A DNA stretch of 64,000 nucleotides from contig NZ_CP129968.2 in the NCBI RefSeq assembly GCF_030503875.2, positions 620,001 to 684,000 of the forward strand, in the 5' to 3' direction. This DNA comes from Marivirga arenosa. GTDB taxonomy: Bacteria; Bacteroidota; Bacteroidia; Cytophagales; Cyclobacteriaceae. How positions within the stretch are numbered: position 1 is the first letter of the stretch; every line of letters starts with the position of its first letter. The translations under genes and the position numbers were made by a program. The notes below the pieces were generated by a model. That model did no database searches. It was not told where the DNA came from and saw nothing but the letters and a program-made list of their open reading frames with translations. This document shows positions 2,998 through 21,871 of this stretch, one piece after another.

Positions 2998-4272
2998 ATG
3001 TTACAAGTAGCAAATTTGCGTGAAAATAAAGCCAATGCTATAAAAGGCTTGCTTAAAAGAAATATTGATAATGCTGAAACTCTTATTGATGAGGTAATTG
3101 CATTAGACGATAAAAGAAAATCAATTCAGCAAGAATTAGATGCTGTTTTAGCTGAATCAAATCAGATTTCAAAAAGCATTGGTCTTTTAATGAAAGAAGG
3201 GAAGAAAGAAGAGGCAGAAGAAGTGAAGGCGAAAACTGCTGAGTTGAAGCAAAAGAGCAAAAGCCTTCAGGAAGATGCGCAAACTGTAGAGCAGGAATTA
3301 ACCACTAAATTATATCAGCTTCCAAATGTGCCACATCCATCAGTGGTGAAAGGAAAGGGAGAAGATGATAATGAGATTTTATTGGAACATGGTGAGAAGC
3401 CTGATCTTTATGCTGGAAAAAAGCCTCATTGGGATTTAATTAAGGATTATGATATCATCGATTTTGATTTAGGAATAAAAATCACTGGCGCAGGATTCCC
3501 AGTTTACAAAGGAAAAGGTGCTAGAATGCAACGAGCTTTATTAAACTTCTTCCTTGATGAAGCCGAAAAACAAGGCTTTAAGGAAATACAACCACCAGTT
3601 GTAGTAAATGAAGCGTCAGGTATTGGCACGGGGCAATTACCGGATAAGGAAGGGCAAATGTATCATATTGAAGATACTGATCTATATTTAATTCCTACTG
3701 CGGAGGTTCCGGTTACGAATATATTCAGAGATGAAATTATCAATGAAGAAGATTTACCGATTAAACTAACGGCTTATACTCCTTGCTTTAGAAAAGAAGC
3801 AGGTTCTTGGGGAGCTCATGTAAGAGGTTTAAATAGATTGCATCAGTTTGATAAGGTAGAGATTGTTCAGGTGCAACACCCGGATAAATCATATCAAGCA
3901 CTGGAAGAGATGAGCGAGTATATTCAAAGCTTACTCAAGAAATTAGAACTACCGTATCGAGTTTTAAGATTGTGTGGAGGTGATTTAGGATTTACTTCGG
4001 CACTTACTTACGATATGGAAGTTTGGTCAGCTGCTCAAGAAAAATGGTTAGAAGTTAGTTCGGTTTCTAATTTCGAAAATTATCAGTCGAACAGATTAAA
4101 ATTAAGATATAAGGATGCTGATAAGAAAAAGCATTTATTACATACTTTAAATGGTAGTGCTTTAGCTTTCCCTAGAATTTTAGCCGCTATTCTGGAGAAT
4201 AACCAAACAGAAAAAGGGATTAAAGTTCCTGAAGTACTTCAAAAGTATACTGGCTTCGAATGGATTGATTAA
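2998..4272 (+). CDS. serS: Seryl-tRNA synthetase
   Basis: Class II aminoacyl-tRNA synthetase charging tRNA-Ser, 424 residues. The frame can be read from a TTG at 2992, but the ATG at 2998 gives the family-typical start MLQVANLRENK, so I use it. The N-terminal long antiparallel coiled coil (about residues 25-105) binds the tRNA variable arm. In the catalytic core TAEVP, motif 2 (FRKEAGSWGAHVRGLNRLHQF) and motif 3 (LNGSALAFPR) are all visible. The gene is monocistronic and divergent from rho. It is followed by an unusual nested palindrome at 4296-4379. Confidence 0.97.
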   Translation: MLQVANLRENKANAIKGLLKRNIDNAETLIDEVIALDDKRKSIQQELDAVLAESNQISKSIGLLMKEGKKEEAEEVKAKTAELKQKSKSLQEDAQTVEQELTTKLYQLPNVPHPSVVKGKGEDDNEILLEHGEKPDLYAGKKPHWDLIKDYDIIDFDLGIKITGAGFPVYKGKGARMQRALLNFFLDEAEKQGFKEIQPPVVVNEASGIGTGQLPDKEGQMYHIEDTDLYLIPTAEVPVTNIFRDEIINEEDLPIKLTAYTPCFRKEAGSWGAHVRGLNRLHQFDKVEIVQVQHPDKSYQALEEMSEYIQSLLKKLELPYRVLRLCGGDLGFTSALTYDMEVWSAAQEKWLEVSSVSNFENYQSNRLKLRYKDADKKKHLLHTLNGSALAFPRILAAILENNQTEKGIKVPEVLQKYTGFEWID

Positions 4273-5503: not shown

Positions 5504-6136
5504 TCACCAAATATCAGCCCAGAAGATAATGGCGCTTGTTTCATCATTTATTGCAATACCTTTTGAGTAACCATGTTTCCAATCTTTAGGGGTGTATAAA
5601 CCATTAGGTAATTTTGTTGAATCCATATATATCCCTGGTTTTGCTTCTAATACGTATAAATCGTACCCCTTGAGTCGAGTTGGGTTGCTATTTGTTTCGG
5701 ACCAATCAGTTGAATAGAAGTTCGGAACTGGATATTTATTATGATGACAAGGCTTATCATTATAATCTATCTTCTTAGGGATTCTTTTTGACTTGTCAAT
5801 TTTATACCAATTTGATTTATTTAAATGTTTATCAATTACCAATAGGCAAGAGTCACTAGTTTGGTATTTTGCCACAGCTACGTTTTCAATGCTGTCTTTC
5901 AGTAAATCTAATTCATTTTCTGATTTATAATATTTCAGCCAAACATGAGGGTGTGAATTTGTAGTGTTTTGACTGATTACATTTAAAGAAAATTCAATCG
6001 GAACGGTCTTTGGAAAATGAGAAATAAAATCTTTATGAAAATAATTAATTGCTGTACCGAATATTAATTCTCTTTCACCAAAAGAACATCCATTTAGTAT
6101 TAAAACAAGGAGTATTAAAGATTTTAATATTTTCAT
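5504..6136 (-). CDS. Hypothetical lipoprotein
   Basis: This 210-residue protein has a short hydrophobic signal segment ending in the lipobox LNGC (Cys17), so it is probably a membrane-anchored lipoprotein. The body has no domain I recognise. It is rich in Lys, Asn, Tyr and Trp, with motifs such as HPHVWLKYYKSENEL and NGLYTPKDWKHGYSKG. It is followed on the same strand by nothing until ypdA, which converges on it. The upstream gene at 6161 is also a lipoprotein on the same strand with only 24 nt between, so the pair is probably one operon. Confidence 0.75.
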   Translation of the reverse strand: MKILKSLILLVLILNGCSFGERELIFGTAINYFHKDFISHFPKTVPIEFSLNVISQNTTNSHPHVWLKYYKSENELDLLKDSIENVAVAKYQTSDSCLLVIDKHLNKSNWYKIDKSKRIPKKIDYNDKPCHHNKYPVPNFYSTDWSETNSNPTRLKGYDLYVLEAKPGIYMDSTKLPNGLYTPKDWKHGYSKGIAINDETSAIIFWADIW

Positions 6137-6867: not shown

Positions 6868-8472
6868 ATGCAAAAGATACTAATCGCGATACTTTTATTG
6901 GCTTGTGCTAATCTTGCCTTTGCTCAGAAACGTAAGCTTCCACCTAATATTTCTACCTGGAATTATAATGAATACGCACCAAAGTTGACGGCAGATGGTC
7001 GAACTCTCATTTTTCTATCAGATTATACAGACTCAGGTGAACCTGAATTAGTAATTAGCTCTGCTGTAGGTAATAATTGGACTAGCCCCAAAGAGGTGAA
7101 TATTCTGAATGAAGATTTGGTGCCTTTTGGGTCATATAATATATCGTATGATGGCGAGCAACTTTTCTATTCTTCGAAAAAAGGCCCTAAAATTGGAGGT
7201 TATGATATTCTATTTCAGACTAAAGAAGGCAATGGCTGGTCTACCCCCGTTAATCCTGGAAAACCGCTTAATTCTACATTATTGGAAATGGATCCTACCT
7301 TATCGGCTGATGATAAAACAATGTACTTCAGTAGGTGTGAAACCTTAGACCCTGAAGGTGGGAATTGTAGAATTTTTGCTTCAGAGTATTTGGGTAATAA
7401 CTATTGGAAAGAACCACAGGAAATTGAGTTGGACTTGGCCTCATCCTCTTTTGTGAATCCTGTTATTTTACCCGATAATAAAACACTTTATTTTGCTGCT
7501 TTGAACAGCAGTGGTGATTATGACTTTTATATGAGTCGTAAAGAAAATGATAGCTGGAGCAAGCCAGTACCCATGGACTTTATCAATACCGAAGCTCACG
7601 ATCGCTATATGGGCGTTACGGCTTTGGGTAATGTGGCCTATACTCATCAGAAAGATGAGCGTGGATATGATTTGATTATGGTGAAAGTGCCAGAAGAGTT
7701 TCAACCGGCTAAAGTGTATTATTTGGAAGGAACAGTAACTAATTTGCCAGATAAGGCTCTGGTAAGAGCCACCGATCTTGAGACAGGAGATGAATTGGCA
7801 AGGCTAATACTTGATCCTGCTGAGGAAAAGACTTTTGGCATCTATTTACCAGAAGGTCATAAAGTTGATTTTTATATTGAAACCAAAGAATCAGGCTATG
7901 GATACTATAGTGAATTCTTAGATCTTGAAGACTTAAGCAGCTCTAAAAAGGTAGTTAAAGATATCAAATTGCCTATTCTGAAAGCTGGAGAACAATACCC
8001 GATTGGAATTAGCTTTGAAGAGTTTTCAGAAGACTTTGATGCAGGAGCTGAGGAAGAGTTGGCCAGGCTGATTACGCTTATGAAGCAAAATCGTGATTTT
8101 CAATTTAATATTTCAGTATATCAAAAAAGTGTAAGTGAATCGGAGCAATATGTGGATAGTTTGCCCGAAACTCGCTTTGATACAATAATGGTTAAAATAG
8201 AACAGCCGGAAATGGATAGCACTTTAATGAGTGACACCACCAATATTGAAGTTGATAGTTCATCCATTATGCAAGAAAGCAGGGAAGAAATTGTGACCAT
8301 TTACCATAATGATTTAACGCCAAAACGGGCGGAGGCGATCAAAACCTATTTATTAGATAAGGGTGTACCTGAAAGCATGTTTACGGTAAGTGGTGAAGGG
8401 GTTCATCCTGAATTACAATATTCAGAAAAAGAGAAGGTAAGAAATGCGAAGGTAGTTTTGAGTTTGGACTGA
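6868..8472 (+). CDS. Exported PD40 beta-propeller protein with degenerate OmpA-like C-terminus
   Basis: This 534-residue protein has a cleavable signal peptide (cut after AFA in ANLAFAQKRK). Residues about 25-270 hold repeated WD40-like PD40 blades, seen as LTADGRTLIFLSDY, ISYDGEQLFYSS, LSADDKTMYFSR and ILPDNKTLYFAA. A middle Ig-like or carboxypeptidase-regulatory-like segment follows. The C-terminal 140 residues align in outline with an OmpA peptidoglycan-binding domain (LARLITLMKQNRDFQFNISV, then KRAEAIKTYLLDKGVPESMFTVSGEG). The usual Asp of the GHTDN motif is absent and an acidic linker of about 60 residues splits the domain. It is probably periplasmic or outer-membrane associated, with weakened peptidoglycan binding. 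Confidence 0.8.
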   Translation: MQKILIAILLLACANLAFAQKRKLPPNISTWNYNEYAPKLTADGRTLIFLSDYTDSGEPELVISSAVGNNWTSPKEVNILNEDLVPFGSYNISYDGEQLFYSSKKGPKIGGYDILFQTKEGNGWSTPVNPGKPLNSTLLEMDPTLSADDKTMYFSRCETLDPEGGNCRIFASEYLGNNYWKEPQEIELDLASSSFVNPVILPDNKTLYFAALNSSGDYDFYMSRKENDSWSKPVPMDFINTEAHDRYMGVTALGNVAYTHQKDERGYDLIMVKVPEEFQPAKVYYLEGTVTNLPDKALVRATDLETGDELARLILDPAEEKTFGIYLPEGHKVDFYIETKESGYGYYSEFLDLEDLSSSKKVVKDIKLPILKAGEQYPIGISFEEFSEDFDAGAEEELARLITLMKQNRDFQFNISVYQKSVSESEQYVDSLPETRFDTIMVKIEQPEMDSTLMSDTTNIEVDSSSIMQESREEIVTIYHNDLTPKRAEAIKTYLLDKGVPESMFTVSGEGVHPELQYSEKEKVRNAKVVLSLD

Positions 8473-10991: not shown

Positions 10992-11168
10992 TTTCGATAT
11001 TTACTTTATGAATGATTCAATATACCAAAAACTAAATTAGTGCTATAGGTTTCGGTTATAGTGGAACTTATAACTTAAATATAGAAAAAATTCAGAATTA
11101 AAGTCATTTAGAAATGTGTTGATGTACATGCGGTAAGTGTGCGCTAAGCGGGCTATTATTTAAATGTT

Positions 11169-11213
11169 TGTAAAGGCACATGCTTTACAAAAGTTAAAGG
11201 TTAGGGTTTACAC
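11169..11213 (+). repeat. IS481 left terminal inverted repeat
   Basis: It begins TGTAAAGGCACATGC and ends GGTTTACAC. It is the inverted counterpart of 12427-12471 with one single-base gap and several mismatches. It includes the transposase stop codon. Confidence 0.8.
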
Positions 11214-12389
11214 TATATTTTGGCTCAGCCTTATTGATTTTTGTTTGTCTCTTAAATGTTTTTCATCAAAGTATCCTAAAAATAAGCTTCTATAGAATAC
11301 CCTCCAAATTCCATTATCCATATCTAGCACTCCCACATATTTTCCCTTTAAAGCTGCTGTCAGATATACCCAGTAATAGGACCGCCATCGCACGGCTCCG
11401 TTTTGCGTTACCTTTAACACTTTCATGTCTGAATCGTAGTCATAAACGAGTATCTTTTCAGGGAAAGGGCGGGTTGAAAAGCTATGTGCAGAAGCTGGGG
11501 TTTCCATCCCTAAAGCTTCGTGTGGACGTACATGATTGTATTCCTTTACAAAGTTGTTTAAGCGTCTTTGCTGTGCCTTCAAATCGTAGGCTGAAGGCTT
11601 TGCACAAGAGGCTTTTAAATCACGGTGCATGCGTTCATGTCTGCCGTTTTGTTCCGGGTGTGCAGGATCAGAAAATACAGGAATTATACCTAATTCAATG
11701 AACCAATAAGAGAGCTGGGTAAAGCGCTGAATGGAAGCTACCGATCCGAACGGACTTCCATTATCAGTATGGATTTGCTTTGGGATCCCATATTGCCTAA
11801 AAACCCTTGTAAACTCTGTTTTAACTGCCTTTAAGTTCTCTTTATAATGTCCTTTGGCTGCAAACAAAAACCTGCTCCTGGAGTCTGCAATTGTCAAGGG
11901 ATGGCAGTATATTTTATTGCCCATTAAAAACTTCCCTTTGTAATCAGCACTCCAAACTTCATTGCATTCCTGAGGATCAAATATGGGGAAAACAGGCTTC
12001 ACTCTCCTGAGCCTTTTTTGAGGCTTCACAAACCCATGCTGGTTAAGGATTTTGTGAACTGTAACCACACTGGGTACATCCTCCTTGCAGCATTCGTTAA
12101 ACAATAATCTCCTAATCTTTTTAGCACCCCAGCGTGCATACTTTTCCTTTATTTGAATGATTTTTTCTTCAATCGCTGCACTGGTTTTGTTGGGATGAGC
12201 CCGAGGTGTTCTCGACTGCTCTACAAGCCCTTCCAGTCCTTCATTTTGGAAGCGATTTATTAACTTATAGGCTGTTGGCCTGGAGATATTAAATGCTTTA
12301 CAAAGTTCGGTGATGCTGTACTTCTGAGTACGCCACTCACAAATAAATTCTACTTTCTGTTCCATAGTTGTTGTTTCTTTCCAAGGCAT
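11208..12389 (-). CDS. IS481-family transposase
   Basis: DDE transposase of 393 residues, apparently intact. The N-terminal helix-turn-helix (YSITELCKAFNISRPTAYKLI, about residues 24-44) and a second winged-helix segment (RWGAKKIRRLL) bind the element ends. The RNase H-like core supplies Asp149 (WSADYKG), Asp209 (HTDNGSPFG) and Glu252 (GRHERMHRDLK). The PEQNGRHERMHRDLK block and the C-terminal RPHEALGMETPAS segment are typical of the IS481 family. The start at 12389 leaves about 38 nt to the right inverted repeat. No frameshift or stop is seen, so the element may still be active. Confidence 0.93.
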   Translation of the reverse strand: MPWKETTTMEQKVEFICEWRTQKYSITELCKAFNISRPTAYKLINRFQNEGLEGLVEQSRTPRAHPNKTSAAIEEKIIQIKEKYARWGAKKIRRLLFNECCKEDVPSVVTVHKILNQHGFVKPQKRLRRVKPVFPIFDPQECNEVWSADYKGKFLMGNKIYCHPLTIADSRSRFLFAAKGHYKENLKAVKTEFTRVFRQYGIPKQIHTDNGSPFGSVASIQRFTQLSYWFIELGIIPVFSDPAHPEQNGRHERMHRDLKASCAKPSAYDLKAQQRRLNNFVKEYNHVRPHEALGMETPASAHSFSTRPFPEKILVYDYDSDMKVLKVTQNGAVRWRSYYWVYLTAALKGKYVGVLDMDNGIWRVFYRSLFLGYFDEKHLRDKQKSIRLSQNIV

Positions 12390-12426
12390 AGCAATCTGAT
12401 TTTTTAATCAAATTACTGCTTAAAAA

Positions 12427-12471
12427 GTGTAAACCATGTCCCTTTAACTTTGTAAACGATGTCTCTTTACC
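12427..12471 (-). repeat. IS481 right terminal inverted repeat
   Basis: On the minus strand it begins GGTAAAGAGACATCG and ends GGTTTACAC, matching the left end in order and spacing. It contains two GTTTAC boxes, as expected for transposase binding at this end. Confidence 0.8.
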
Positions 12472-12483
12472 GTACCAAATTAT

Positions 12484-12615
12484 TACCAACGTTTAGTATA
12501 TGGCAAGTAGGCGATTGCGGGCTTCAAACCTATCAAACCGAGACGAAGTTGGAGCGGGTTACAACCGTTGAATTTACTACTGTCGCGCCTATTTGCTATA
12601 TACATTGTAAGCGGT
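12484..12615 (-). repeat. attC-like site A, downstream of the methyltransferase gene
   Basis: An 18-bp arm GTATATGGCAAGTAGGCG (12496-12513) pairs with CGCCTATTTGCTATATAC (12586-12603) with only two G-T wobbles, separated by about 72 nt. On the minus strand the outer boxes are ACCGCTTAC (R''-like, 12615-12607, 18 nt after the gene) and CGTTGGTAA (R'-like, ending near 12484). The sequence TTACAATGTATATAGCA just inside R'' resembles the corresponding part of site B. The IS481 right end lies 13 nt beyond the R' end. Confidence 0.72.
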
Positions 12616-12632
12616 ATGTTGTTTTTAGTTTT

Positions 12633-13424
12633 TCATTTTTCAGCTTTCAATGAATAAATCATCGGTATCTTATCTTCTAATCCTTTAATTTTAAATTTTT
12701 GGTCATCAACTTTGACAGTGTTTTCAAAGCAATTATAAGGTGAATAATTGTATTCTTTGAAATCCGCAATTTTTAATCCTGTTTTTATAATCGAATTTAT
12801 GACAGTACTCAATCCGTGATTCCAACTAACTGATTCTTCTTTAATCTTGGCATTCCTGTCTGTATAAGTTCCTTCTAATTCTTCAATTATTGGGTTAGAA
12901 TCCTTATAATTAAACTCTATTTTTTTAAAGTCATAACTAAACATCCAAACAATTGGATGAAACTCAACCATTATAAATTTTCCTTTCGGTTTTAGAAAGT
13001 GGTTTATTATTTTCGCCCATTCTTTCATATCTGGCAGCCAGCCAATCACTCCGTAAGATGTGTAAACAATATCAAATTGTTCATCAAGAATCTCAGGAAG
13101 TTTGTAAACGTCAGATTGAATGAATTTTGCATTTGTCTCTAATTGCTCATTAAGTTTTTTTGCTTTTTCAATTGCATTTTCTGAAAAATCAACTCCTGTA
13201 GCTAAAGCTCCATGTCTTGAAAGAGAAATAGTGTCTTGTCCAAAATGACATTGTAAGTGTAAAATTTTTTTGTCTTTAATATCTCCGAGCAATTCAATTT
13301 CAATTGGATTTAACGAATCTTTCCCCTTAATAAAGGAATCAACATCGTAAAAATCAGAATCGTAATGAATTTCTGTTTTTTGATTCCAAAGTCTTTTGTT
13401 TATGTCAATATAATTTAAATCCAT
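12633..13424 (-). CDS. Class I SAM-dependent methyltransferase (cassette gene)
   Basis: This 263-residue protein has the seven-stranded methyltransferase fold. Motif I is ILHLQCHFGQDTISLS (about 54-69), an atypical form in which the usual DxGxGxG is replaced by LQCHFGQD, as in some small-molecule methyltransferase families. TGVDFSENAIEKAKKL (77-92) supplies the acidic residue for the SAM ribose, and FDIVYTSYGVIGWL is motif IV. The substrate cannot be told from the sequence. The gene is flanked by attC-like sites A and B with a leader of about 40 nt after the B crossover point, so it forms a single-gene cassette of about 970 bp. Confidence 0.88.
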   Translation of the reverse strand: MDLNYIDINKRLWNQKTEIHYDSDFYDVDSFIKGKDSLNPIEIELLGDIKDKKILHLQCHFGQDTISLSRHGALATGVDFSENAIEKAKKLNEQLETNAKFIQSDVYKLPEILDEQFDIVYTSYGVIGWLPDMKEWAKIINHFLKPKGKFIMVEFHPIVWMFSYDFKKIEFNYKDSNPIIEELEGTYTDRNAKIKEESVSWNHGLSTVINSIIKTGLKIADFKEYNYSPYNCFENTVKVDDQKFKIKGLEDKIPMIYSLKAEK

Positions 13425-13454
13425 TTAAACGCTGATTTTGTGTTCGTTACAATT

Positions 13455-13576
13455 ACCGCTAACTGCCAGACATGGCACGTGCCTCTGAACTTTTTTAATA
13501 TTCACTAAAGTATCGGTTTTGCATTTCAGTTTCAAGTAAATCAATAGAGGCATGTGCTATATCATTTGTTAGAGGC
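13455..13576 (-). repeat. attC-like site B, downstream of the 13589-14191 lipoprotein gene
   Basis: ATGGCACGTGCCTCT (13472-13486) pairs with AGAGGCATGTGCTAT (13546-13560) with two G-T wobbles. Outer boxes CCGCTAAC (13456-13463) and GTTAGAGG (13568-13575) pair again with one mismatch. This leaves unpaired spacers between the outer and inner stems, the layout of an attC site with R and L boxes. On the minus strand it starts GCCTCTAACAAATG, 13 nt after the gene stop, and ends CAGTTAGCGGT. Confidence 0.75.
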
Positions 13577-13588
13577 TTTTTTTACCAT

Positions 13589-14191
13589 TTATTCGGGTCT
13601 TGAATACACGATTAACTCCTCGACATACAAAAAATCACCCTGAGACTGATTCAGTTTAATAAAGTTCTTAACTGCCGGGGCATACAACCAAATCTCCTCT
13701 TCATCTGCATTATATCCTCTGGAATTAGTGGTTTTACCGGTATATTTTATGGTGTAAGCCATGAATGTTCCGGCTTCTACTGTTTCCTCCTGATACGATA
13801 ACACCTCTGCATTCTGACTTTGACTTCCTGTAGTACCATCCTGGCTTGTCCAATTGTTCTCGTATCTCCATTTTTTACCGACTTGCAATGGCCAGTCATA
13901 CTTAGGAGTTTCGCTTTCATCTGGCTTTACAATTTCGGTGAGAGGAATGGTGTCTTTGCCTATGATCATGCCAAAGCCTTTATCAGAATTCACTATAGTT
14001 CTAGTGTCTATTCCTTCCGAACGAACTTCCCCTTCCGTAGTTACACCCTTATATTTCCAAACCCATTTTTCGCCAACTTGATAATCGGCTAAAGTTGGTT
14101 GTTGTGTGAGGTCAGATTTTTTTGAGGTATCGCAAGCACAAAATATGATCGCGGATAAGAGTGTTAAAAATTCAATTCTCATGTTTTTCAT
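13589..14191 (-). CDS. Hypothetical lipoprotein (last gene of the large cassette)
   Basis: This 200-residue protein has a signal segment with FCAC (Cys20) as a probable lipobox. The mature part is Trp-rich: YQVGEKWVWKYKG, and later WPLQVGKKWRYENNW, a repeated VGxxWxxxY motif. Motifs of this kind occur in exported beta-sandwich proteins, but I do not recognise a named family. The ATG at 14191 and an in-frame ATG at 14182 are both possible starts. attC-like site B begins 13 nt after the stop. The gene is 50 nt downstream of the hydrolase gene and may be cotranscribed with it. Confidence 0.75.
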   Translation of the reverse strand: MKNMRIEFLTLLSAIIFCACDTSKKSDLTQQPTLADYQVGEKWVWKYKGVTTEGEVRSEGIDTRTIVNSDKGFGMIIGKDTIPLTEIVKPDESETPKYDWPLQVGKKWRYENNWTSQDGTTGSQSQNAEVLSYQEETVEAGTFMAYTIKYTGKTTNSRGYNADEEEIWLYAPAVKNFIKLNQSQGDFLYVEELIVYSRPE

Positions 14192-14240
14192 AATTTAATT
14201 TAAAGTTGTTAGGGTTAAATACTGTGTTTTATTAACAGAA

Positions 14241-15203
14241 TCAGCTATCCTGTTGCTTCAACCATTCTAAAATCACCTGGTTGGTCTCTTTTGGTTTCTC
14301 TTGTTGGATCCAATGTCCACAGTCAAGACTTACTTCTTCAACATTGGGAACAAACTGTGACAGTCCTTCAAATTTTGGGATCAGATCTTGTTCGCCATAG
14401 ATCATCAGCGAAGGTTGTGCTATAATGGGGTTAGCATTGGCTAATAAGTGCCAGTTACGATCAAGATTTCGATACCAATTTATACTTCCGGTAAACCCTG
14501 ATGATTCGAAAGCAGAAACGAAAACGGCCAATTCATCCTCACTCATGACAGGCTCACCTTTTGGTTCTTTCGCGCTTGCAAGGTTGATGATGGTCATGCC
14601 TGGTTCTGGTGGCATCTTCGGAATATTCTTTCGAAAAAGATTGTGAAGGAACTGGTGAACGTTTTCATCTAAAATTCTATCGGCCACACCTGGTTGCCTA
14701 TTGAAATGGACGAAGTAATAGTCGCTGCCTAAAAACTCTTCCATCCACTCTATCCAGGGCCTTTCTCCCCGAACTTGGTAGGGTACTGCCAAAGCAATGA
14801 GTTGCTTTACCCGATTTGGATTTAATAAGGTCAACCACCAGGTGACCATGGCGCCCCAATCATGACCAATAAATGTGGCATTCTCATATTCATAATGATC
14901 TAAAAGAGCGACAAGATCATCGGCAAGGTGTTTAATATCATATGCAATAACCTCAGAGAAATGAGATGAGTTACCATAACCTCGTTGGTTTGGAACTATT
15001 ACATGGTATCCTGAATCAACTAAAGCAGAAATCTGGTGACGCCATGAAAATGCATGCTCTGGCCAGCCATGTAATAGAATGATCGGTTTTCCTGCATTTT
15101 GCTGACCCGCCTCAAATACTTCCAACTCTATCCCATTTACCGGAATAATTGTTGGCTGAGGAAATCCGATTGTTTCTAAAATTGAATTCATATTGTTTGT
15201 CAT
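14241..15203 (-). CDS. Alpha/beta hydrolase, epoxide hydrolase-like
   Basis: From the ATG at 15203 the protein has 320 residues. A longer frame begins with a TTG at 15233 but adds only basic residues. The alpha/beta-hydrolase fold is clear: HGWPEHAFSW carries the oxyanion-hole HGWP motif (about 45-48), and GHDWGAMVTWW is the nucleophile elbow with Asp115, typical of epoxide hydrolases and haloalkane dehalogenases. YGEQDLIP holds the acid and CGHWIQQEKP the catalytic His. HGWP together with an Asp nucleophile favours soluble epoxide hydrolase. It lies in a run of minus-strand genes for small-molecule chemistry inside the large cassette. Its base composition looks richer in G and C than flanking core genes. 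Confidence 0.88.
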   Translation of the reverse strand: MTNNMNSILETIGFPQPTIIPVNGIELEVFEAGQQNAGKPIILLHGWPEHAFSWRHQISALVDSGYHVIVPNQRGYGNSSHFSEVIAYDIKHLADDLVALLDHYEYENATFIGHDWGAMVTWWLTLLNPNRVKQLIALAVPYQVRGERPWIEWMEEFLGSDYYFVHFNRQPGVADRILDENVHQFLHNLFRKNIPKMPPEPGMTIINLASAKEPKGEPVMSEDELAVFVSAFESSGFTGSINWYRNLDRNWHLLANANPIIAQPSLMIYGEQDLIPKFEGLSQFVPNVEEVSLDCGHWIQQEKPKETNQVILEWLKQQDS

Positions 15204-15287
15204 TTCTCTTTTTCGTTTAATGTGAATTACCAATAATCATTTGCTGAAAATTGAATTGTGGATTATCATCTTTGATTAACCAAAAGT

Positions 15288-16793
15288 CTATTGTCTCACG
15301 GCCTTTTGGCCATAGAGCGAAAATGAATTGAAATTATCCTCTTGGAGAAAGGAAACTTCAATACCCGTATTGGGGTGGACAAAATCTAGTTCGTCACCAA
15401 TCACGTGAACAAGCTTATACTCATCACCATTAGGAAAATTGAGTGCTATGAGCTTCTCTTTTTCATCATATCTCATATTAAGGTTGATTTGATCGTTCCA
15501 TTTAAACTCTCCCATCAGCGTTTTTAAAATTTCGGTATCAATCTCCTTGCGATGAAGCTGATTTTGTTCGAATTGTTTCCAGCCGTATACCTGCGCAGCA
15601 GACAGTAGGATTTCATTACCCAGATTACCTCCGTTATCAGAGTTGATTAAGTAAACCAGTCCATTTCCAGTTGTCAGACTAATGGTCATAGCCGTTCTAT
15701 ACCCAGCATTTCCTCCATAATGAGTGATGGCAAGATCATCATCGGTTCGGTTGACTATAAACCCATAAATATGGCCTTCTCTTTCGTCTCTTATCATCGA
15801 TTTTACGTCTGATTGTGAGAATATCGATGGTTTGCCTTGATAGGCATTATAAATTTCCGTCATAAACTTTGCCAAATCCCTGGCATTGCTCCAAAGCCCT
15901 GCTGCTGCCTGCTCCGGATGGTTCCGCCAGCCACCTTCCAACGGTTCTCCTGATTGGGTGTGTCCTTTGGCCACCCGGTCGGAGTATGATGCAGGTAATG
16001 GTTGAGTGAATTCCGAGTTTTTCATGTTAGCCGGATTCAGAATCCACTTTTTCATGATTTCAGAGAAATCTGTACCGTAGATATCTTGTAGCGCTAATTC
16101 CGCCAACGTATACCCCCCTCCTGAATAGACCAGAGTTTGATTTGGAGACCAAACCACTTCAATGGCCGCGGAATTAACTCCATCGTTTCCCATTAGAATA
16201 TCTACATCAGATGGCATATCAATATTCCTATTATATCCCTGGTAACCACCCCCATTTATCCCTGAAGTGTGGGAAAATAGATTACGAAATGTCACCGGGT
16301 TATCGATAGTTTGTTTACCCTTTGGGAGTTGGAAACTCCTCAGATAATCCCTTATGTTTTTGTCCAAATCAATTTCCCCGGCAGCATGCATACGCAAGGC
16401 CGCCATAAATGTAACAGGCTTCGATAGAGATGCTGCTTGAAATATGCTTATGCAATCCAGTCTTTGATTTCCTGCTAATTCTGCATTCTGATAAGTCTCC
16501 GACCATTCGATCTGACCTTCCTTAATGACCGCAAGAGACATTGCCGGTATGATGTATTCTGACATTTTATCAGATATGGAGCTCAGAGTCTCAGTTTCAC
16601 CGATAAACTTCACTTTACCACGCATGCCATTTTCCAACTGAGTCTTTAAATCAGCTGCATACGCTGGATTTAAACAACCTTCTGCAGCTGTTTCTGCCTT
16701 CTCAGTATCAGTTGGCTTAATTGAGCATGAACCCAAGAGGATGAGCAAGAAAAAGTAAAGGAATTGCGTATTCATATTTGTATTAATTTTCAT
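15288..16793 (-). CDS. Serine hydrolase, class C beta-lactamase/PBP-like lipoprotein
   Basis: This 501-residue protein has the lipobox LLGSC (Cys23). The beta-lactamase fold has the SxxK motif at SLSK (Ser122, Lys125) in the context FQAASLSKPVTF. A YSG motif (VYSGGGYTLAEL) stands where class C enzymes have Tyr-x-Asn, and HYGGNAGY replaces the KTG triad. This pattern is usual for the esterase/D-aminopeptidase branch rather than for true antibiotic-degrading AmpC. A C-terminal beta-rich extension (about 410-501) resembles the lipocalin-like tail of such hydrolases. I would not call it a resistance gene. It is 55 nt upstream of the epoxide hydrolase-like gene. Confidence 0.87.
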   Translation of the reverse strand: MKINTNMNTQFLYFFLLILLGSCSIKPTDTEKAETAAEGCLNPAYAADLKTQLENGMRGKVKFIGETETLSSISDKMSEYIIPAMSLAVIKEGQIEWSETYQNAELAGNQRLDCISIFQAASLSKPVTFMAALRMHAAGEIDLDKNIRDYLRSFQLPKGKQTIDNPVTFRNLFSHTSGINGGGYQGYNRNIDMPSDVDILMGNDGVNSAAIEVVWSPNQTLVYSGGGYTLAELALQDIYGTDFSEIMKKWILNPANMKNSEFTQPLPASYSDRVAKGHTQSGEPLEGGWRNHPEQAAAGLWSNARDLAKFMTEIYNAYQGKPSIFSQSDVKSMIRDEREGHIYGFIVNRTDDDLAITHYGGNAGYRTAMTISLTTGNGLVYLINSDNGGNLGNEILLSAAQVYGWKQFEQNQLHRKEIDTEILKTLMGEFKWNDQINLNMRYDEKEKLIALNFPNGDEYKLVHVIGDELDFVHPNTGIEVSFLQEDNFNSFSLYGQKAVRQ

Positions 16794-16806
16794 TGTCTGT
16801 ATTTTG

Positions 16807-17484
16807 TTATGCGTAATGATTCTCGAGACTTACTCCTTTTGCCAAAAGCCAAATACCAAATGTCAATTCGAAGAAGGCTCCTGGAGCCATCACTATCATA
16901 AGAACTTTAATAGGAAATTCAGGTAATAGTATTTGCAAAGTAAAACCTAAGAATACAGTGACATATGTAAATGCTCCCCAATAGCCAAGCCATTTTGGAA
17001 TGTAGGCGGCAGATAGTAGTAACGATATGAAAATAAAGGCACCAATACTCATTAATATGAGGTGAAGATTCGAGCCCATACCGTAAATATTAAAAAATAC
17101 AGATGCTAGTGAATGAAGACTGTCTTTATTTAACTGATAGTTATCTGCGTTCTTTAATATAACAAGAGGGGCTAAATAAATGAGCACGATCACAAAACCC
17201 ATAACCGCCTCTGCTGTTCTGAAAATAAAGCCTAGTTTAGCGCGATTTTTATTAATAGATTTTGTGAGTAGATACAGTGCAACAGCCATCCACATGACAA
17301 GTGCATACATGGTTACATCTAACATCACACCTATTCGAAATTGAAATTCAGATGTCACCAGCGCTTCAGGATTATGTAAGCCGGGTTTTACCAGGAAATT
17401 ATTGACAGCGCCAATGAGTGTAGTCACCAAATACGTGAATCCTACTATTTTGGCTTGCTCCTGTACTTTGGTTTCCATATTCAT
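16807..17484 (-). CDS. DUF4386-family integral membrane protein
   Basis: From the ATG at 17484 the protein has 225 residues. The longer frame from 17586 is rejected because it would read through most of the small ORF at 17499-17675 and adds a basic non-family tail. About six hydrophobic segments are seen, including IVGFTYLVTTLIGAVNNFLV, GVMLDVTMYALVMWMAVALYLLT, AVMGFVIVLIYLAPLVIL and ILMSIGAFIFISLLLSAAY. This order and the phrase IPKWLGYWGAFTYV fit DUF4386, a family of unknown function often found next to regulators and hydrolases. It is 14 nt upstream of the serine hydrolase gene, so probably cotranscribed. Confidence 0.82.
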   Translation of the reverse strand: MNMETKVQEQAKIVGFTYLVTTLIGAVNNFLVKPGLHNPEALVTSEFQFRIGVMLDVTMYALVMWMAVALYLLTKSINKNRAKLGFIFRTAEAVMGFVIVLIYLAPLVILKNADNYQLNKDSLHSLASVFFNIYGMGSNLHLILMSIGAFIFISLLLSAAYIPKWLGYWGAFTYVTVFLGFTLQILLPEFPIKVLMIVMAPGAFFELTFGIWLLAKGVSLENHYA

Positions 17485-17498
17485 TTCAATCAAAATTT

Positions 17499-17675
17499 TT
17501 AGTTTTCGTTTTCCTTGTTTTGAGATGATTCTTTTTTTCTTGTGTAGTCGATCGCCACACCGATGGCCAATCCTAGGCCTATCCATAATCCAATGTTGTC
17601 CTGAGCGATTCCTATAATTACTCCCAAAAGGACTCCTAGAGCCATTCCCGTGATATTGCTAATTCTTTCATTCAT
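17499..17675 (-). CDS. Small Gly-zipper membrane protein, 58 residues
   Basis: An ATG at 17675 opens a 58-codon frame ending at a TAA at 17499-17501. The peptide starts MNERISNITGMALGVLLGVI and continues with a second hydrophobic run (NIGLWIGLGLAIGVAID), then a basic and polar tail (YTRKKESSQNKENEN). Two short Gly-rich membrane segments with regular Gly spacing resemble small glycine-zipper proteins. The frame fits exactly between the dehydrogenase stop-proximal region and the DUF4386 start, with 14 nt to the next start and 11 nt from the previous stop. That tight spacing supports it being a real operon member. Confidence 0.72.
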   Translation of the reverse strand: MNERISNITGMALGVLLGVIIGIAQDNIGLWIGLGLAIGVAIDYTRKKESSQNKENEN

Positions 17676-17686
17676 GATTTTTAGTT

Positions 17687-18661
17687 TTAAGATGTAACAA
17701 TTACAACATTACCTCTCTTATGACCTGAATCAATATAGCGATGTGCTTCGGCCACTTTCTCTAATGGAAACTGGCGGTCAATGACCGTCTTTAGCCTTCC
17801 CTCTTTGTAGATATCCAACACTTCTGAAAGCAGGTAGCGTAGTTTTTCTTCCTTGTTGGCACCCGTTGCTTCAAACTTGGCTTTCTTCTGACCAAAAAGT
17901 GATGTTTTAATCATCTGTAGAAGCAAAGAAAATTTCAGAACAGGGGATAAATACACACCCTTTTCTGAAAGGATAGCTTTGCACGCTGAAAAGGAGCTTT
18001 TCCCAATCGTGTCGTATACGTAATCGTATTTTCTGTCACCCTTTGTGAAATCTTTCTGTTGATAGTCAATCACCTCATCAGCACCCAGTGACCTCACTAA
18101 TCCAGTGTTTCGGCCACTACAAACTGCTGTGACTTGTGCTCCCATGAACTTAGCTATTTGAATGGCAGATGTACCTAGTGCACCAGAGGCTCCATTGATC
18201 AATACTTTCTGGCCGGGCTTCACTTTAGCAATTTCTTTCAAGAAATTAAAGGAGGTTAAATGTCCATCGCAGAAGTTGGCAGCCTCAGAAAAATCCAAAT
18301 TTTCTGGCATAGGAAGAATGACACCATCCTCCGATATTGTCAGGTATTCTGCATTTGAACTGAATCCAAAAGCTGTTTCCCCAAATACGCGATCACCGAT
18401 TTCAAAGTCTGTAACGTCTTTGCCCACCTGCTCCACGACTCCCGAAAAACCGGTTCCCGGAATGGCTTTCTTGGGTTTTGTTAGACCCACAAACAGCCTC
18501 GCGATATAAGGTTTTCCTGTACGCATCATGGCATCCGCTGTGGTGGCGGAGGCTGTCATGACCTTCACCAAAACTTCATTGGCTTTGGGAACTGGTCTTT
18601 TTACTTCTTGTAACTGGAGTACCTCAGGCGATCCGTACCCTGTTGCTACTGTTGCTTTCAT
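17687..18661 (-). CDS. MDR-family NAD(P)-dependent alcohol dehydrogenase / quinone oxidoreductase-like
   Basis: Medium-chain dehydrogenase/reductase of 324 residues. The N-terminal GroES-like domain (about 1-125) includes KVMTASATTADAMMRTG and the loop DFEIGDRVFGE. The Rossmann domain has VLINGASGALGTSAIQIAKFMGAQV (about 146-170), with the AxxGxxG cofactor loop, and LGADEVIDY. The Cys/His zinc ligands of classical alcohol dehydrogenases are missing, which points to the zinc-free zeta-crystallin/quinone reductase branch using NADPH. Its context with the hydrolases and an AraC-type regulator suggests detoxification of a small organic compound, which is inference. It is 11 nt upstream of the small membrane protein gene. 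Confidence 0.9.
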   Translation of the reverse strand: MKATVATGYGSPEVLQLQEVKRPVPKANEVLVKVMTASATTADAMMRTGKPYIARLFVGLTKPKKAIPGTGFSGVVEQVGKDVTDFEIGDRVFGETAFGFSSNAEYLTISEDGVILPMPENLDFSEAANFCDGHLTSFNFLKEIAKVKPGQKVLINGASGALGTSAIQIAKFMGAQVTAVCSGRNTGLVRSLGADEVIDYQQKDFTKGDRKYDYVYDTIGKSSFSACKAILSEKGVYLSPVLKFSLLLQMIKTSLFGQKKAKFEATGANKEEKLRYLLSEVLDIYKEGRLKTVIDRQFPLEKVAEAHRYIDSGHKRGNVVIVTS

Positions 18662-18778
18662 TTTCTGTGTTATGGCTTAGTTTTTTAATTCATAACAAAA
18701 AAAGGAAGAAGTGAAAGGGTATTTGTTCGGTATACTAAGAAGTGGTTCGGAATTATAATTTAGAACTAAAAAATCTGA

Positions 18779-20557
18779 TTACGCCTGACTTTTCAGAAAT
18801 TCTTTTGGCGTCATACCCACTTCTTTTTTAAATACCGTATTGAAAACTGTTTTAGAATTGAAGCCACTTTCGTAGGCTAGCCCGATCAACGAAATATGTG
18901 AATTGTCTGGATCAAGAACGAGTTGCTTGAAGTACTCAATACGCTCATTATTAATAAACTCGTTGAAGTTTTTGCCAATGGATTCATTCAATAACCATGA
19001 AAGCTGATTGGGGTGAATATCTACCTGCTCGGCTAGAGAACGTAAAGTAAGTGAAGGGTTGAGGTACGGTCGCTCTGATTTCACATAAGCTTGTATTTTC
19101 TTCACCTGTTCTCTTGTGATGGTTTGATCAGGGTTTCTGGTTTTTTTTTCTTTTGGTTTTTCTACGATTTTCGGATAAACCCTATCATGAAATTCTTGAT
19201 ATCTTGGGTGTGATTGAATGGGTTCTCCCAATGGATCACTAAAGGCAAGAAGCAGGATTGAAGAGGCACTTTCGAAAAGCTTCTCTAAAATAGCAAATGC
19301 TTCGTCATATCGACCCAGATTGGCATAGGTAAGGAAAAGGTAGGAATGAGCATGGTGGGCTTCTGGTTCCTGAGCATACTTCTCCAGCTTTTGTAAATGT
19401 GTTGTACTTTTTCCATCCATCGCATCGATCAGGGCAAGGAGGCCCAGTCTTTCATCCGGGGTGAAGGCCTGCTGAGGAACATCATCTATTGTTTGGCGAG
19501 CTGCTCTGAGTTGACCTTCTCGAATAAGGATATAGATACTGACGATAATTGCCGGAAGGTTTTTGTCATTTGATTCCAGCAATTCCTGTAAAATTTCTTT
19601 GGCTTTGTCATATTCACCCACTCGATAATAATAATTGGCCTCATAGAATTTGGTCTCAGGATTAAGTGGGTCTGAGGATTTGGCAAAAAGTATATGCTTC
19701 CGGGCCTTATTAAAATGACCATGAAGCGTGTGAAGAAAGGAAACAAATTGATGTGCTTCTGAGTAGGTGGGTTTGGCAGTTAATGACCTCATGCCATATT
19801 GCATGGCTGCAGCAAAATCTGCTTCGGTAAAGAATGACTGCATACCCAGCATGTAATTAAGTCCTGCATGGTCTGGGTCAAGCTTTTTCGCTAAGGCTAA
19901 AGCTGTTATGCTTTTTTGCCAGGCTTCTTCACGTGGGGCAAAACCAGCCACAGCCATAAAACTGTAGCTATCAGCTATTCCGAGATAGCCCTCTATGAGT
20001 TCTTTATCTAGTTCTACGGATTTTTCAAAGTGCTCAATGGCTAGGTTAGCATCCTCAGGATTCCACTTGTAGAAATGATGACGTCCTTTTAATAGATGCT
20101 CGTATGATGAAACGCTCTTTGTAGGGCTGTTCACTACCTGGTTTGAGATGTTCAAATGGCCATGTTGCTCACGAATTTTATCAGCAATGAGCAAGCTGAT
20201 TTCATCTTGAGTTTCAAAAAGGTTCTCTAGCTTTCGATCCCAGGTCTCTGACCAGAAATGTGTGTCCTGTTCGACATCTATTAGCTTAGCACGAACTCGA
20301 ATTTTACCATCATGAATCTGTGCACTACCCTCTAAAAGTATTGCCACACCTAGCTGCGCGGCAATTTCCTCAAGAGAAGCTTTGTGGTTTTTGAAAAAGA
20401 AACTGGATGTGCGAGAGATGACTTTCAAGCCATCGATTTTGGCCAGGGCATTGATGATTTCCTCTGTTATACCATCACAGATGAATTCACTGCTACCATC
20501 AATACTGAGGTCACTAAAAGGGAGGATTGCTATGGATTTTTTAGTGTTCACTTTCAA
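18779..20557 (-). CDS. TolB-like / TPR / AraC-type transcriptional regulator
   Basis: This 592-residue one-polypeptide regulator has three parts. Residues about 5-130 form the TolB-N/FlgO-like domain often seen in CadC-like and adenylate-cyclase-linked regulators (SIAILPFSDLS, GITEEIINALAKIDGLKVISR, HFWSETWDRKLENLFETQDEI). Residues about 150-450 are TPR-like helical pairs (HLLKGRHHFYKWNPEDANLAIEHF and later copies). The C-terminal 100 residues are an AraC two-HTH domain (LRSLAEQVDIHPNQLSWLLNE and SLIGLAYESGFNSKTVFNTVFKKEVGMTPKEF). Start is a TTG at 20557 or a GTG at 20551, only about 25-32 nt from the attC-like C crossover. It probably controls the genes downstream in the same cassette. Confidence 0.88.
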   Translation of the reverse strand: MKVNTKKSIAILPFSDLSIDGSSEFICDGITEEIINALAKIDGLKVISRTSSFFFKNHKASLEEIAAQLGVAILLEGSAQIHDGKIRVRAKLIDVEQDTHFWSETWDRKLENLFETQDEISLLIADKIREQHGHLNISNQVVNSPTKSVSSYEHLLKGRHHFYKWNPEDANLAIEHFEKSVELDKELIEGYLGIADSYSFMAVAGFAPREEAWQKSITALALAKKLDPDHAGLNYMLGMQSFFTEADFAAAMQYGMRSLTAKPTYSEAHQFVSFLHTLHGHFNKARKHILFAKSSDPLNPETKFYEANYYYRVGEYDKAKEILQELLESNDKNLPAIIVSIYILIREGQLRAARQTIDDVPQQAFTPDERLGLLALIDAMDGKSTTHLQKLEKYAQEPEAHHAHSYLFLTYANLGRYDEAFAILEKLFESASSILLLAFSDPLGEPIQSHPRYQEFHDRVYPKIVEKPKEKKTRNPDQTITREQVKKIQAYVKSERPYLNPSLTLRSLAEQVDIHPNQLSWLLNESIGKNFNEFINNERIEYFKQLVLDPDNSHISLIGLAYESGFNSKTVFNTVFKKEVGMTPKEFLKSQA

Positions 20558-20574
20558 TTGAGTTGTTGATAATT

Positions 20575-20740
20575 GCCTCTAACGACTAGCTATGATGAGT
20601 GGGGATTAGAATGCACTAACCTTTCCAGTTCCTCAAAGCCACGCCTTGATTTAAATTTAAAATTTGTGGCGGAATTTCCAATTCCAACCAAACTTTCCTG
20701 ACAGATGAAACCCCATTCATTCATAGCATTTGTTATGCAC
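20575..20740 (-). repeat. attC-like site C, overlapping the stop of the 329-residue cassette gene
   Basis: GCTATGATGAGTGGGG (20589-20604) pairs with CCCCATTCATTCATAGC (20711-20727) with one extrahelical base and one G-T wobble. Extrahelical bases are a hallmark of attC sites. On the minus strand the outer boxes are GTGCATAAC (20740-20732, containing the gene's TAA stop) and CGTTAGAGGC (ending near 20575). The start GTGCATAACAAATG matches GCCTCTAACAAATG of site B over AACAAATG. Confidence 0.75.
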
Positions 20741-21722
20741 TTAGTTCTATTAATTTAAGATTGGTTTTATCTCTTCTAGTTTGTATCCAAGGAATTGGTT
20801 GCAAATGCAAAGTATCAGGCTCAACCAGGTTGTCAATAAATGCACTTTGATTGATGTCTGTAGTGATAATTGGAAACTTAAAGTTATCTGCGTTTATCAT
20901 CAGAACTAAGTTGTAATCGCCAAAAGTAATAGGTACTGTAGTCTCATCAACAACCTCTCCGTGTATACTCAAAAATGCTTTAGATTCTGTTCCATCATAC
21001 ATCAAAAACTTACAATCGTGTAGCAACGCCAAAATACATACGATTATACATTCCATCGATTTCTCTATTTCCTTAATGCTGAGATTAAAACCTGATAGCT
21101 TGTTTATTCTATTTAGAGCGTTTTTTAGATCGTTTCTTAAGGCATCACTTGTCACTACACCTTTTGGAGTTATCGTTCCTCGTAAGAATTTCAAGATATC
21201 CTCCAAGAGTTGGAACTTTCTACCTGTTATTGACGCCTTTAGTTCGTAAACACCATTCTTTTTTTGATAAGAGTTATTAATTAAGTTTTGTATCTCTTTT
21301 CGTTTGAGCTTGTAATATTTGATAAATAGTGATTCGTCAATATCTTCTAAGCTATTTCTTACAAAAAGATCAAAATCAGTCTTATTAATCTTCCTTGGAT
21401 TTATATAGTCCAGAATTTTGTCGGAAAAATAGCTTTCTGGTTTGTCTGCATTATTATCAAATTCCTTTTTTTCGGCTAATTCACGAGCCCCAAGTCTAGC
21501 CATTTTCATTCTAGCATATCTGGAATCAATAGCTTTGTGACAAATCCCTTGGTTTCTTTCAGGATGTGCGATTGAGTCGGCAACTTCTCTTAAGAATGTT
21601 TGCTCGCGAATAAATTCTCTAATATCAATTAATAGCATTTTAACATCGTATTCGTCAAACGATTCCAGTCGAACTTTTTCAAAGAATCGATTTAGAGATG
21701 TTTTTAACTTGATATTGTCCAT
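20733..21722 (-). CDS. Unrecognised cassette-encoded protein, 329 residues
   Basis: I do not recognise a family. The frame is open from a GTG at 21758, but the ATG at 21722 lies just inside the cassette boundary and gives a protein of 329 residues, so I use it. The N-terminal half is helical and charged, with a REVADSIAHPERNQGICHK segment (about 45-63) that vaguely recalls the helical IAHPxR motifs of some abortive-infection or HEPN-like proteins. The C-terminal part looks beta-rich (FLSIHGEVVDETTVPITFGDYNLVLMINAD). No signal peptide or membrane segment is seen, so it is probably cytoplasmic. Its stop codon lies inside the R''-like box of attC-like site C. Confidence 0.65.
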   Translation of the reverse strand: MDNIKLKTSLNRFFEKVRLESFDEYDVKMLLIDIREFIREQTFLREVADSIAHPERNQGICHKAIDSRYARMKMARLGARELAEKKEFDNNADKPESYFSDKILDYINPRKINKTDFDLFVRNSLEDIDESLFIKYYKLKRKEIQNLINNSYQKKNGVYELKASITGRKFQLLEDILKFLRGTITPKGVVTSDALRNDLKNALNRINKLSGFNLSIKEIEKSMECIIVCILALLHDCKFLMYDGTESKAFLSIHGEVVDETTVPITFGDYNLVLMINADNFKFPIITTDINQSAFIDNLVEPDTLHLQPIPWIQTRRDKTNLKLIELSA

Positions 21723-21733
21723 TGAAGGTGATT

Positions 21734-21769
21734 GTGCACAACAACTGAATATAGTCACCCCCTGGTGAC
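21734..21769 (-). other. Candidate upstream boundary of the cassette cluster
   Basis: The minus-strand word GTTGTGCAC (21742-21734) matches the reverse complement of the R''-like box of site C at 8 of 9 positions, as expected for the start of that cassette. Next to it lies a 6-bp hairpin GTCACC / GGTGAC (21754-21759 and 21764-21769). I could not find a full attC partner arm further upstream, so this may be a secondary insertion site or a degenerate site. Confidence 0.45.
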
Positions 21770-21871
21770 GATATATCTTTTATATCATTCATCACAACTC
21801 AAAAAATAATAGAAATAGGTTTTGGTTGTATATGAACTGATGCTATAAATATAATTAAATTCCTGGCGATT

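Follow-up and report, generated by a model that had tools for sequence, protein, structure and literature searches.

A gene cluster on the minus strand of the Marivirga arenosa genome is, very probably, the head of an integron that lost its integrase gene and kept an attI site and three cassettes, within a system that is an integron type of the Bacteroidia. The analysed stretch, hereafter the window, comprises 64,000 nucleotides (C1:620001-684000 of the 4.05-Mb genome). More broadly, it is likely that the Bacteroidia have a widespread integron type of their own, in which the recombinase lacks a domain supposed to be essential and the attC sites mostly present A·C oppositions instead of bulges. 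A first-pass annotation of the window had proposed three attC-like palindromes in this cluster, recognised by reciprocal matches between their boxes; all three palindromes and all of the boxes were recovered. Read along the minus strand, the cluster presents an inverted repeat, the box GTTGTGCAC, a 329-aa gene, site C, a 7-kb block of six genes, site B, a methyltransferase gene, site A and an IS481-like element, and the cassettes measure 1.2, 7.1 and 1.0 kb. The features are as follows.

12633 to 21758, minus strand: genes of the cluster.
21763..21863, minus strand: leader of ~105 bp, common to other integrase-less heads.
21740..21778, minus strand: putative attI-type site, inverted repeat ATATATCGTCACC..GGTGACTATAT, then TTCAGTT^G, with the crossover GTT at 21742.
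21742-21734, minus strand: start box GTTGTGCAC.
20736..21722, minus strand: cassette 1 gene (329 aa), ATG 11 bases past the start box and stop codon within R''; its protein matches nothing in Pfam (E<=0.5) or NCBIfam (E<=0.001).
20575-20740, minus strand: attC site C, R'' GTGCATAAC at 20740-20732 and R' end GTTAGAGGC at 20583-20575, based on fold, boxes and covariance score.
13589..20557, minus strand: cassette 2, a six-gene, seven-kb block, start box against its own R'' 6/6; the genes encode an AraC/TPR regulator, a zinc alcohol dehydrogenase, a DUF4386 protein, a serine beta-lactamase-like hydrolase, an alpha/beta hydrolase and a 200-aa protein without a match.
13455-13576, minus strand: attC site B, R'' GCCTCTAAC at 13576-13568 and R' end GTTAGCGGT at 13463-13455, based on palindrome, fold and boxes.
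12636..13424, minus strand: cassette 3 gene, a 263-aa S-adenosylmethionine methyltransferase (Methyltransf_25, 3.9e-14).
12482-12616, minus strand: attC site A, R'' ACCGCTTAC at 12616-12608 and R' GTTGGT at 12490-12485, based on fold, relatives and covariation.
11208..12389, minus strand: IS481-like transposase gene, whose element abuts the end of site A.

According to the logic put forward in the first-pass annotation, the box that follows the R' crossover of one site should be complementary to the R'' box of the next site along. Boxes were scored over the six bases outside the GTT/AAC core. The C-to-B boxes match exactly, with 6/6 outside the core; the B-to-A boxes match at 8/9, also with 6/6, the single mismatch falling inside the core; and the start box matches that of C at 8/9, which corresponds to 5/6. 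All three values agree with those first reported. Given that, among 4569 non-adjacent pairs in 13 arrays of the genus (window included), 6/6 is reached in 0.39% and >=5/6 in 3.3%, the three matches in the window are jointly far beyond chance, although the sites were picked with their boxes known.

The same rule was evaluated in other arrays, a match being defined as >=5/6. In the 13 genus arrays, adjacent pairs match in 23/55 cases, in comparison with 1/55 for reversed neighbours and 1/68 for boxes of the same site. A second set consisted of 80 named loci, the best 80 of 568 (from Aquimarina, Maribacter, Winogradskyella, Arenibacter, Fulvivirga and others), chosen by integrase only; one locus, L253, is counted in both sets. 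Here 74/103 adjacent pairs match, and 67/73 where the spacing is under 1.5 kb, against 4/103 for reversed neighbours, 11/147 for same-site boxes and 4.4% of 21506 non-adjacent pairs. Since the rule holds in both sets, the box match is a real property of the site family, and the reciprocal-box logic proves to be the correct reading well beyond this window.

The sites also have relatives. For the family of site A, blastn matches (E<=0.01) were found in 14/39 genomes, own genome included, and 18 aligned members present 20 consensus pairs, 13 of which show compensatory changes. The covariance model built from this family, A itself included (R1), recovers site C with 22.9 bits and an E-value of 0.031, C not being among the model's sequences, and the C site type occurs in another array of the own genome (L131) and in arrays of three other species (L136, L141, L145). 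Site B is missed by R1 at E<=5; its case consists of its palindrome, both box matches and an A·C signature read from the sequence. Across the genome, the pattern GTTAGMGGT is no more frequent than its reversed control. All ten genus genomes contain R1 sites, 6 to 28 each at E<=1, with 15 in the own genome. These often form one-direction series, and 62/63 sites lie on the array strand (E<=0.06, fetched stretches plus window). In the alignment of these 63 sites, which was fitted to the model and so favours structure, 93.1% of the cells are paired, in comparison with 66.7% when shuffled, and double-change cells number 304 against 93 in shuffled and 18-41 in slid versions. G-U occurs in just eight cells, the outermost pair excepted, and because these are so few a DNA hairpin suits the sites better than an RNA.

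Three measures fail to set the sites clearly apart from control sequence. In the arm scan of the window (plus reading), B scores 18.7 and ranks first, C scores 18.3 and ranks third, and A scores 14.7; resampled sequence amounting to three windows gave arm scores of 18.7, 17.7 and 17.5. In the 63-site alignment, double-change pairs number 15 against 13.3 when shuffled, and further pair types 39 against 39.5. Since resampled sequence scores as high, the palindromes by themselves are not beyond chance, and the weight lies with the boxes and the relatives. Intergenic palindromes are common, and together with the resampled scores, which match those of A, B and C, this would suit an explanation in which the palindromes are repetitive extragenic palindromic (REP)-like repeats, terminators or structured RNAs rather than recombination sites. 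That explanation is hardly credible: an Rfam scan of the window gave nothing at gathering score, G-U pairs are very few, and the neighbour box rule together with exact GTT-bounded duplicates, described below, has already refuted it for the family.

Among the sites that escape R1 are site B, the attC of the counterpart locus in G039 (the other genome of the same species) and those of a second attC type of ~310 bp. Site counts are lower bounds, since R1 does not list this second type. It reads ACATAAAACCAATTT ... GGTTTTATGTAGGC, and its copies lie, in L131/L132 joined, at 3544-3872, 5556-5884, 8071-8400, 12318-12646, 16325-16636, 18042-18381 and 19963-20278.

As for the architecture of the attC sites, two conserved oppositions in the 63-site alignment place A in the 5' arm and C in the 3' arm: column 25 holds A in 55/63 opposite C in column 277 (50/63), and column 30 holds A in 62/63 opposite C in column 268 (59/63). 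Folds of 56 of the 63 sites present a mean of 0.98 A·C 1x1 loops per site; 19 have at least two 1x1 loops and lack a 5' bulge, and 13 have a 5' bulge. For comparison, canonical attC sites were located with the box rule next to IntI genes of sister classes; in this set of 16 entries, some being one site on both strands and two folding poorly, most have two or three one-nucleotide bulges in one arm. Since the canonical set is of limited size and in part repeats a site on its two strands, the contrast between A·C oppositions and one-sided bulges is only suggestive. Structural work on IntI4 with attC reportedly found that the extra domain of IntI reads the bulged bases. A·C-type stems would be an attractive match to an integrase without that domain.

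The related arrays are headed by a tyrosine recombinase of ~378 aa, and one of them lies ~380 kb from the window in the own genome. On an intI gene elsewhere in this genome, which the first-pass annotation had considered, the answer is mixed: an integron-type integrase with its own array does exist at C1:248838-249971, and it falls below the IntI profile cut-off. An intact canonical IntI in the own genome was rejected as a candidate, as the best TIGR02249 match is this same atypical protein, in two pieces and under the cut-off. The ~42-residue extra domain of IntI is missing in 45/45 of these integrases, and the spacing from the box-I Arg to HxLR is 89 residues, in comparison with 131 in 21/21 IntI. 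The match to NF040815 ('site-specific tyrosine recombinase/integron integrase') scores 224 against a cut-off of 220 bits, a name under which NCBI already lists some relatives. In a tree, the 45 integrases group together on a branch with support 83; it is a quick tree with Xer outgroups only and long branches, and no sister relation to IntI is drawn from it. In a Foldseek search with the predicted integrase structure, IntI4 (2a3v) came first with an E-value equal to that of the archaeal Xer 4a8e; the structure model used was built from 64 sequences and has a predicted local distance difference test (pLDDT) score of 83.5, an 11-sequence model having been poor (pLDDT 67.5).

The arrays sit consistently behind these integrases. 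Within the genus, R1 sites on the same strand lie behind 9/11 full-length integrases, the remaining two being within 400 bp of a contig end, and attI-like repeats were seen by eye behind 11 genus integrases. The attI site would lie about 45 bp past the integrase stop codon. Among fetched members of the close clade, R1 sites lie behind 11/15, with 61/62 hits on the integrase strand; in the wider family, behind 11/20, with 21/22 hits on that strand; and 6 of the 13 members without R1 sites in these two groups have under 1 kb of contig left. In the named loci, the 326 kb of sequence downstream of the integrase contain 146 sites and the 702 kb upstream contain 5, these five all in one locus; 151/153 hits are on the integrase strand. 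A site is present in 45/58 named loci with >=500 bp downstream; in 22/80 the sequence stops less than 500 bp from the integrase, which may reflect assemblies breaking at the repeats.

XerC/XerD-like proteins related to the integrase exist in the genus genomes, and they could move the cassettes as in Xer-dependent elements, the atypical integrase being just a neighbour of the arrays. This is a very improbable explanation, considering that the sites end in GTT with cassette-specific boxes, that no dif-like core was noticed (no search was aimed at one), and that the arrays lie downstream of the integrase on its strand, with the attI-like repeat close behind it.

Returning to the window, no integrase was found in C1:620001-684000 when the own genome was searched with TIGR02249 (E<=10) and with the atypical integrase (E<=1e-20), which bears out the first-pass statement that it contains none. 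The stretch before the first box is 91.3% identical over 46 bp to the sequence right behind the integrase stop codon in G005, a sister species, and 85.1% identical over 47 bp to G006. This likeness and its position suggest an attI-type site with its crossover at the first box, and hence that the cluster was most likely once a complete integron and now lacks the integrase gene, rather than being a stray group of attC sites. The ~105-bp leader is 77-80% identical to three heads that keep a C-terminal integrase stub; the leader sites are at G000 C1 ~1697.8 kb and, in G039, at two places in L135 and at the syntenic locus L161. The integrase-less heads in G000 and G039 keep the final integrase codons (..NPLD stop or a variant), followed by the attI type of the own genome. 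No match to the leader was found upstream of the intact integrases blasted. It might carry a cassette promoter, as a candidate Pc only, or be the mark of one old deletion that spread.

The first-pass annotation had suggested a cluster of attC sites lacking an integrase (CALIN). This holds insofar as attC sites occur here without a nearby integrase; the label is incomplete in that the first box would be an attI-type crossover. Under a grouping rule of <4 kb between sites, presumably the IntegronFinder default, only A and B would be grouped, because B and C are 7 kb apart. CALINs are more numerous than integrons in Bacteria, as stated in part of PMC9668308, and the lack of an integrase in the window would also fit a CALIN made by a canonical IntI, either formerly present or from another organism, inserting at chance targets. 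That origin is very improbable: canonical IntI (E<=1e-60) is found in 1/395 sampled genomes of the class Bacteroidia, the arrays of the atypical integrase share site types A and C, and the account is weakened by the first box lying at an attI-type site of the atypical integrase (21740-21778).

Relatives of the atypical integrase (E<=1e-60), in comparison, occur in 196/395 of the same class genomes, about half; among the relatives examined, most of those with enough contig behind them have attC arrays there. In a phylum sample, the IntI cut-off is passed in 105/395 genomes; among the matches listed, only one genome is of the same class, and it is the class hit already mentioned. Integrons as such are known from Bacteroidota, according to part of PMC8618304. 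No description of integrons of the present kind was found in the open PMC literature, bioRxiv being outside the scope, and no report was found linking NF040815-type relatives to cassette arrays.

Evidence of movement comes from cassette content. At the same locus in G039, the flanks are 96.3 to 98.6% identical and the content differs between window positions 21747 and 10203. G039 has there a degraded form of the window's repeat and, after it, an integrase stub, an attI of the type seen in the own genome, a 393-aa cassette and other genes. The box of the 393-aa cassette matches its R'' at 9/9. R1 gave no site at E<=1 in nine syntenic stretches (L161-L169), and the G039 attC rests on its arms and boxes. 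The first-pass annotation had named palindromes fixed in all relatives, with no exchange, as a finding that would contradict it; this objection fails, since the same-species locus holds a different cassette. The cassette 2 block is missing from G039, and none of the other genus genomes contains it in full (nine searched). As homologues of its pieces, 69-81% identical, are scattered over four genus genomes and elsewhere in the own genome, cassette 2 may have been assembled from several sources. In the intact integron of the own genome, a ~860-bp cassette is present three times at 99.7-100% identity, one copy directly at attI. In G039 (L133/L134 array, L173), a 484-bp cassette occupies four positions; its copies are 100% identical between the bounding GTTs, and their flanks are unrelated. 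L253, being the same place as G039a, is left out of this count. Two species share a 694-bp cassette at 99.9% identity. Cassette exchange is observed in these comparisons.

In the mechanism proposed, the ~378-aa recombinase, whose gene is upstream of the cassettes and codirectional with them, would catalyse attC-attI recombination of circular cassettes and cut adjacent to GTT; attC would probably take part as a folded single strand. Its position, attI, the box rule and the exact duplicates suggest the recombinase performs this reaction. The window would formerly have carried such an integrase, and its cassettes may still be mobile in trans; trans use of its attI is unsure, because the intact integrase of the own genome has a different attI type.

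In comparison with canonical integrons, the system shares attI beside the integrase gene, tandem cassettes in one direction, R''/R' with AAC/GTT, palindromic attC, the GTT boundary and a similar integrase C-terminus (NPLD-like here, SPLD-like in fetched IntI). It differs in that the ~42-residue extra domain is absent from the integrase, which has an additional N-terminal part of ~100 residues, is codirectional with the cassettes and has attI behind its 3' end, and in that the attC stems mostly present A·C oppositions, whereas the few canonical sites compared had one-sided bulges. With CALINs, the cluster shares attC-bounded cassettes without a neighbouring integrase; it differs by the apparent attI retained at its head and by sites belonging to an integrase family below the IntI profile cut-off. 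In reverse-oriented chromosomal integrons (Treponema denticola type), the integrase is likewise codirectional with the cassettes, yet the extra domain is present. The catalytic core is shared with XerA-like recombinases, and the NF040815 name derives from a XerA family model.

The extra domain of IntI is the feature used to distinguish integron integrases, and here arrays with integron logic sit behind recombinases without it. If the recombinase works as proposed, cassettes can be captured without the extra domain, and the prevalence of integrons in Bacteroidia is undercounted. Such integrons would escape IntI searches that require the domain, and cassette recombination at folded sites would either predate it or have evolved without it. 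Provided the recombinase works, naturally occurring pairs of an insertion-less integrase and mismatch-type attC would also make it possible to test directly how the strand and orientation of attC are recognised.

The integrase is preceded by a divergent gene for a 124-aa treble-clef-like protein (L131 1367-1741), which matches DUF2116 weakly, and between the two genes is a palindrome, AACGTTTAWTAAACGTTT (L131 1741-1839), perhaps an operator. Both recur at the equivalent position in most of the nine genus integrons inspected. The Bacteroidetes SOS motifs given in part of PMC8565304 are CTAA-N5-TTAG and GGA-N5-TCC; by eye the palindrome matches neither, and a LexA box was rejected. At G000 C1:2557946-2582612, four copies were seen 7746 bp apart, every one of them containing two matches to tyrosine recombinases.

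The IS481-like element of the window (11165-12480), directly behind an A-family attC, is probably a later insertion outside the array proper. An IS481-like element 72% identical over 1.3 kb occupies the same position in a G006 array (L143, oriented), by the site at 12973-13092, and short matches to the element's ends lie near a site in G005. The element may target attC ends.
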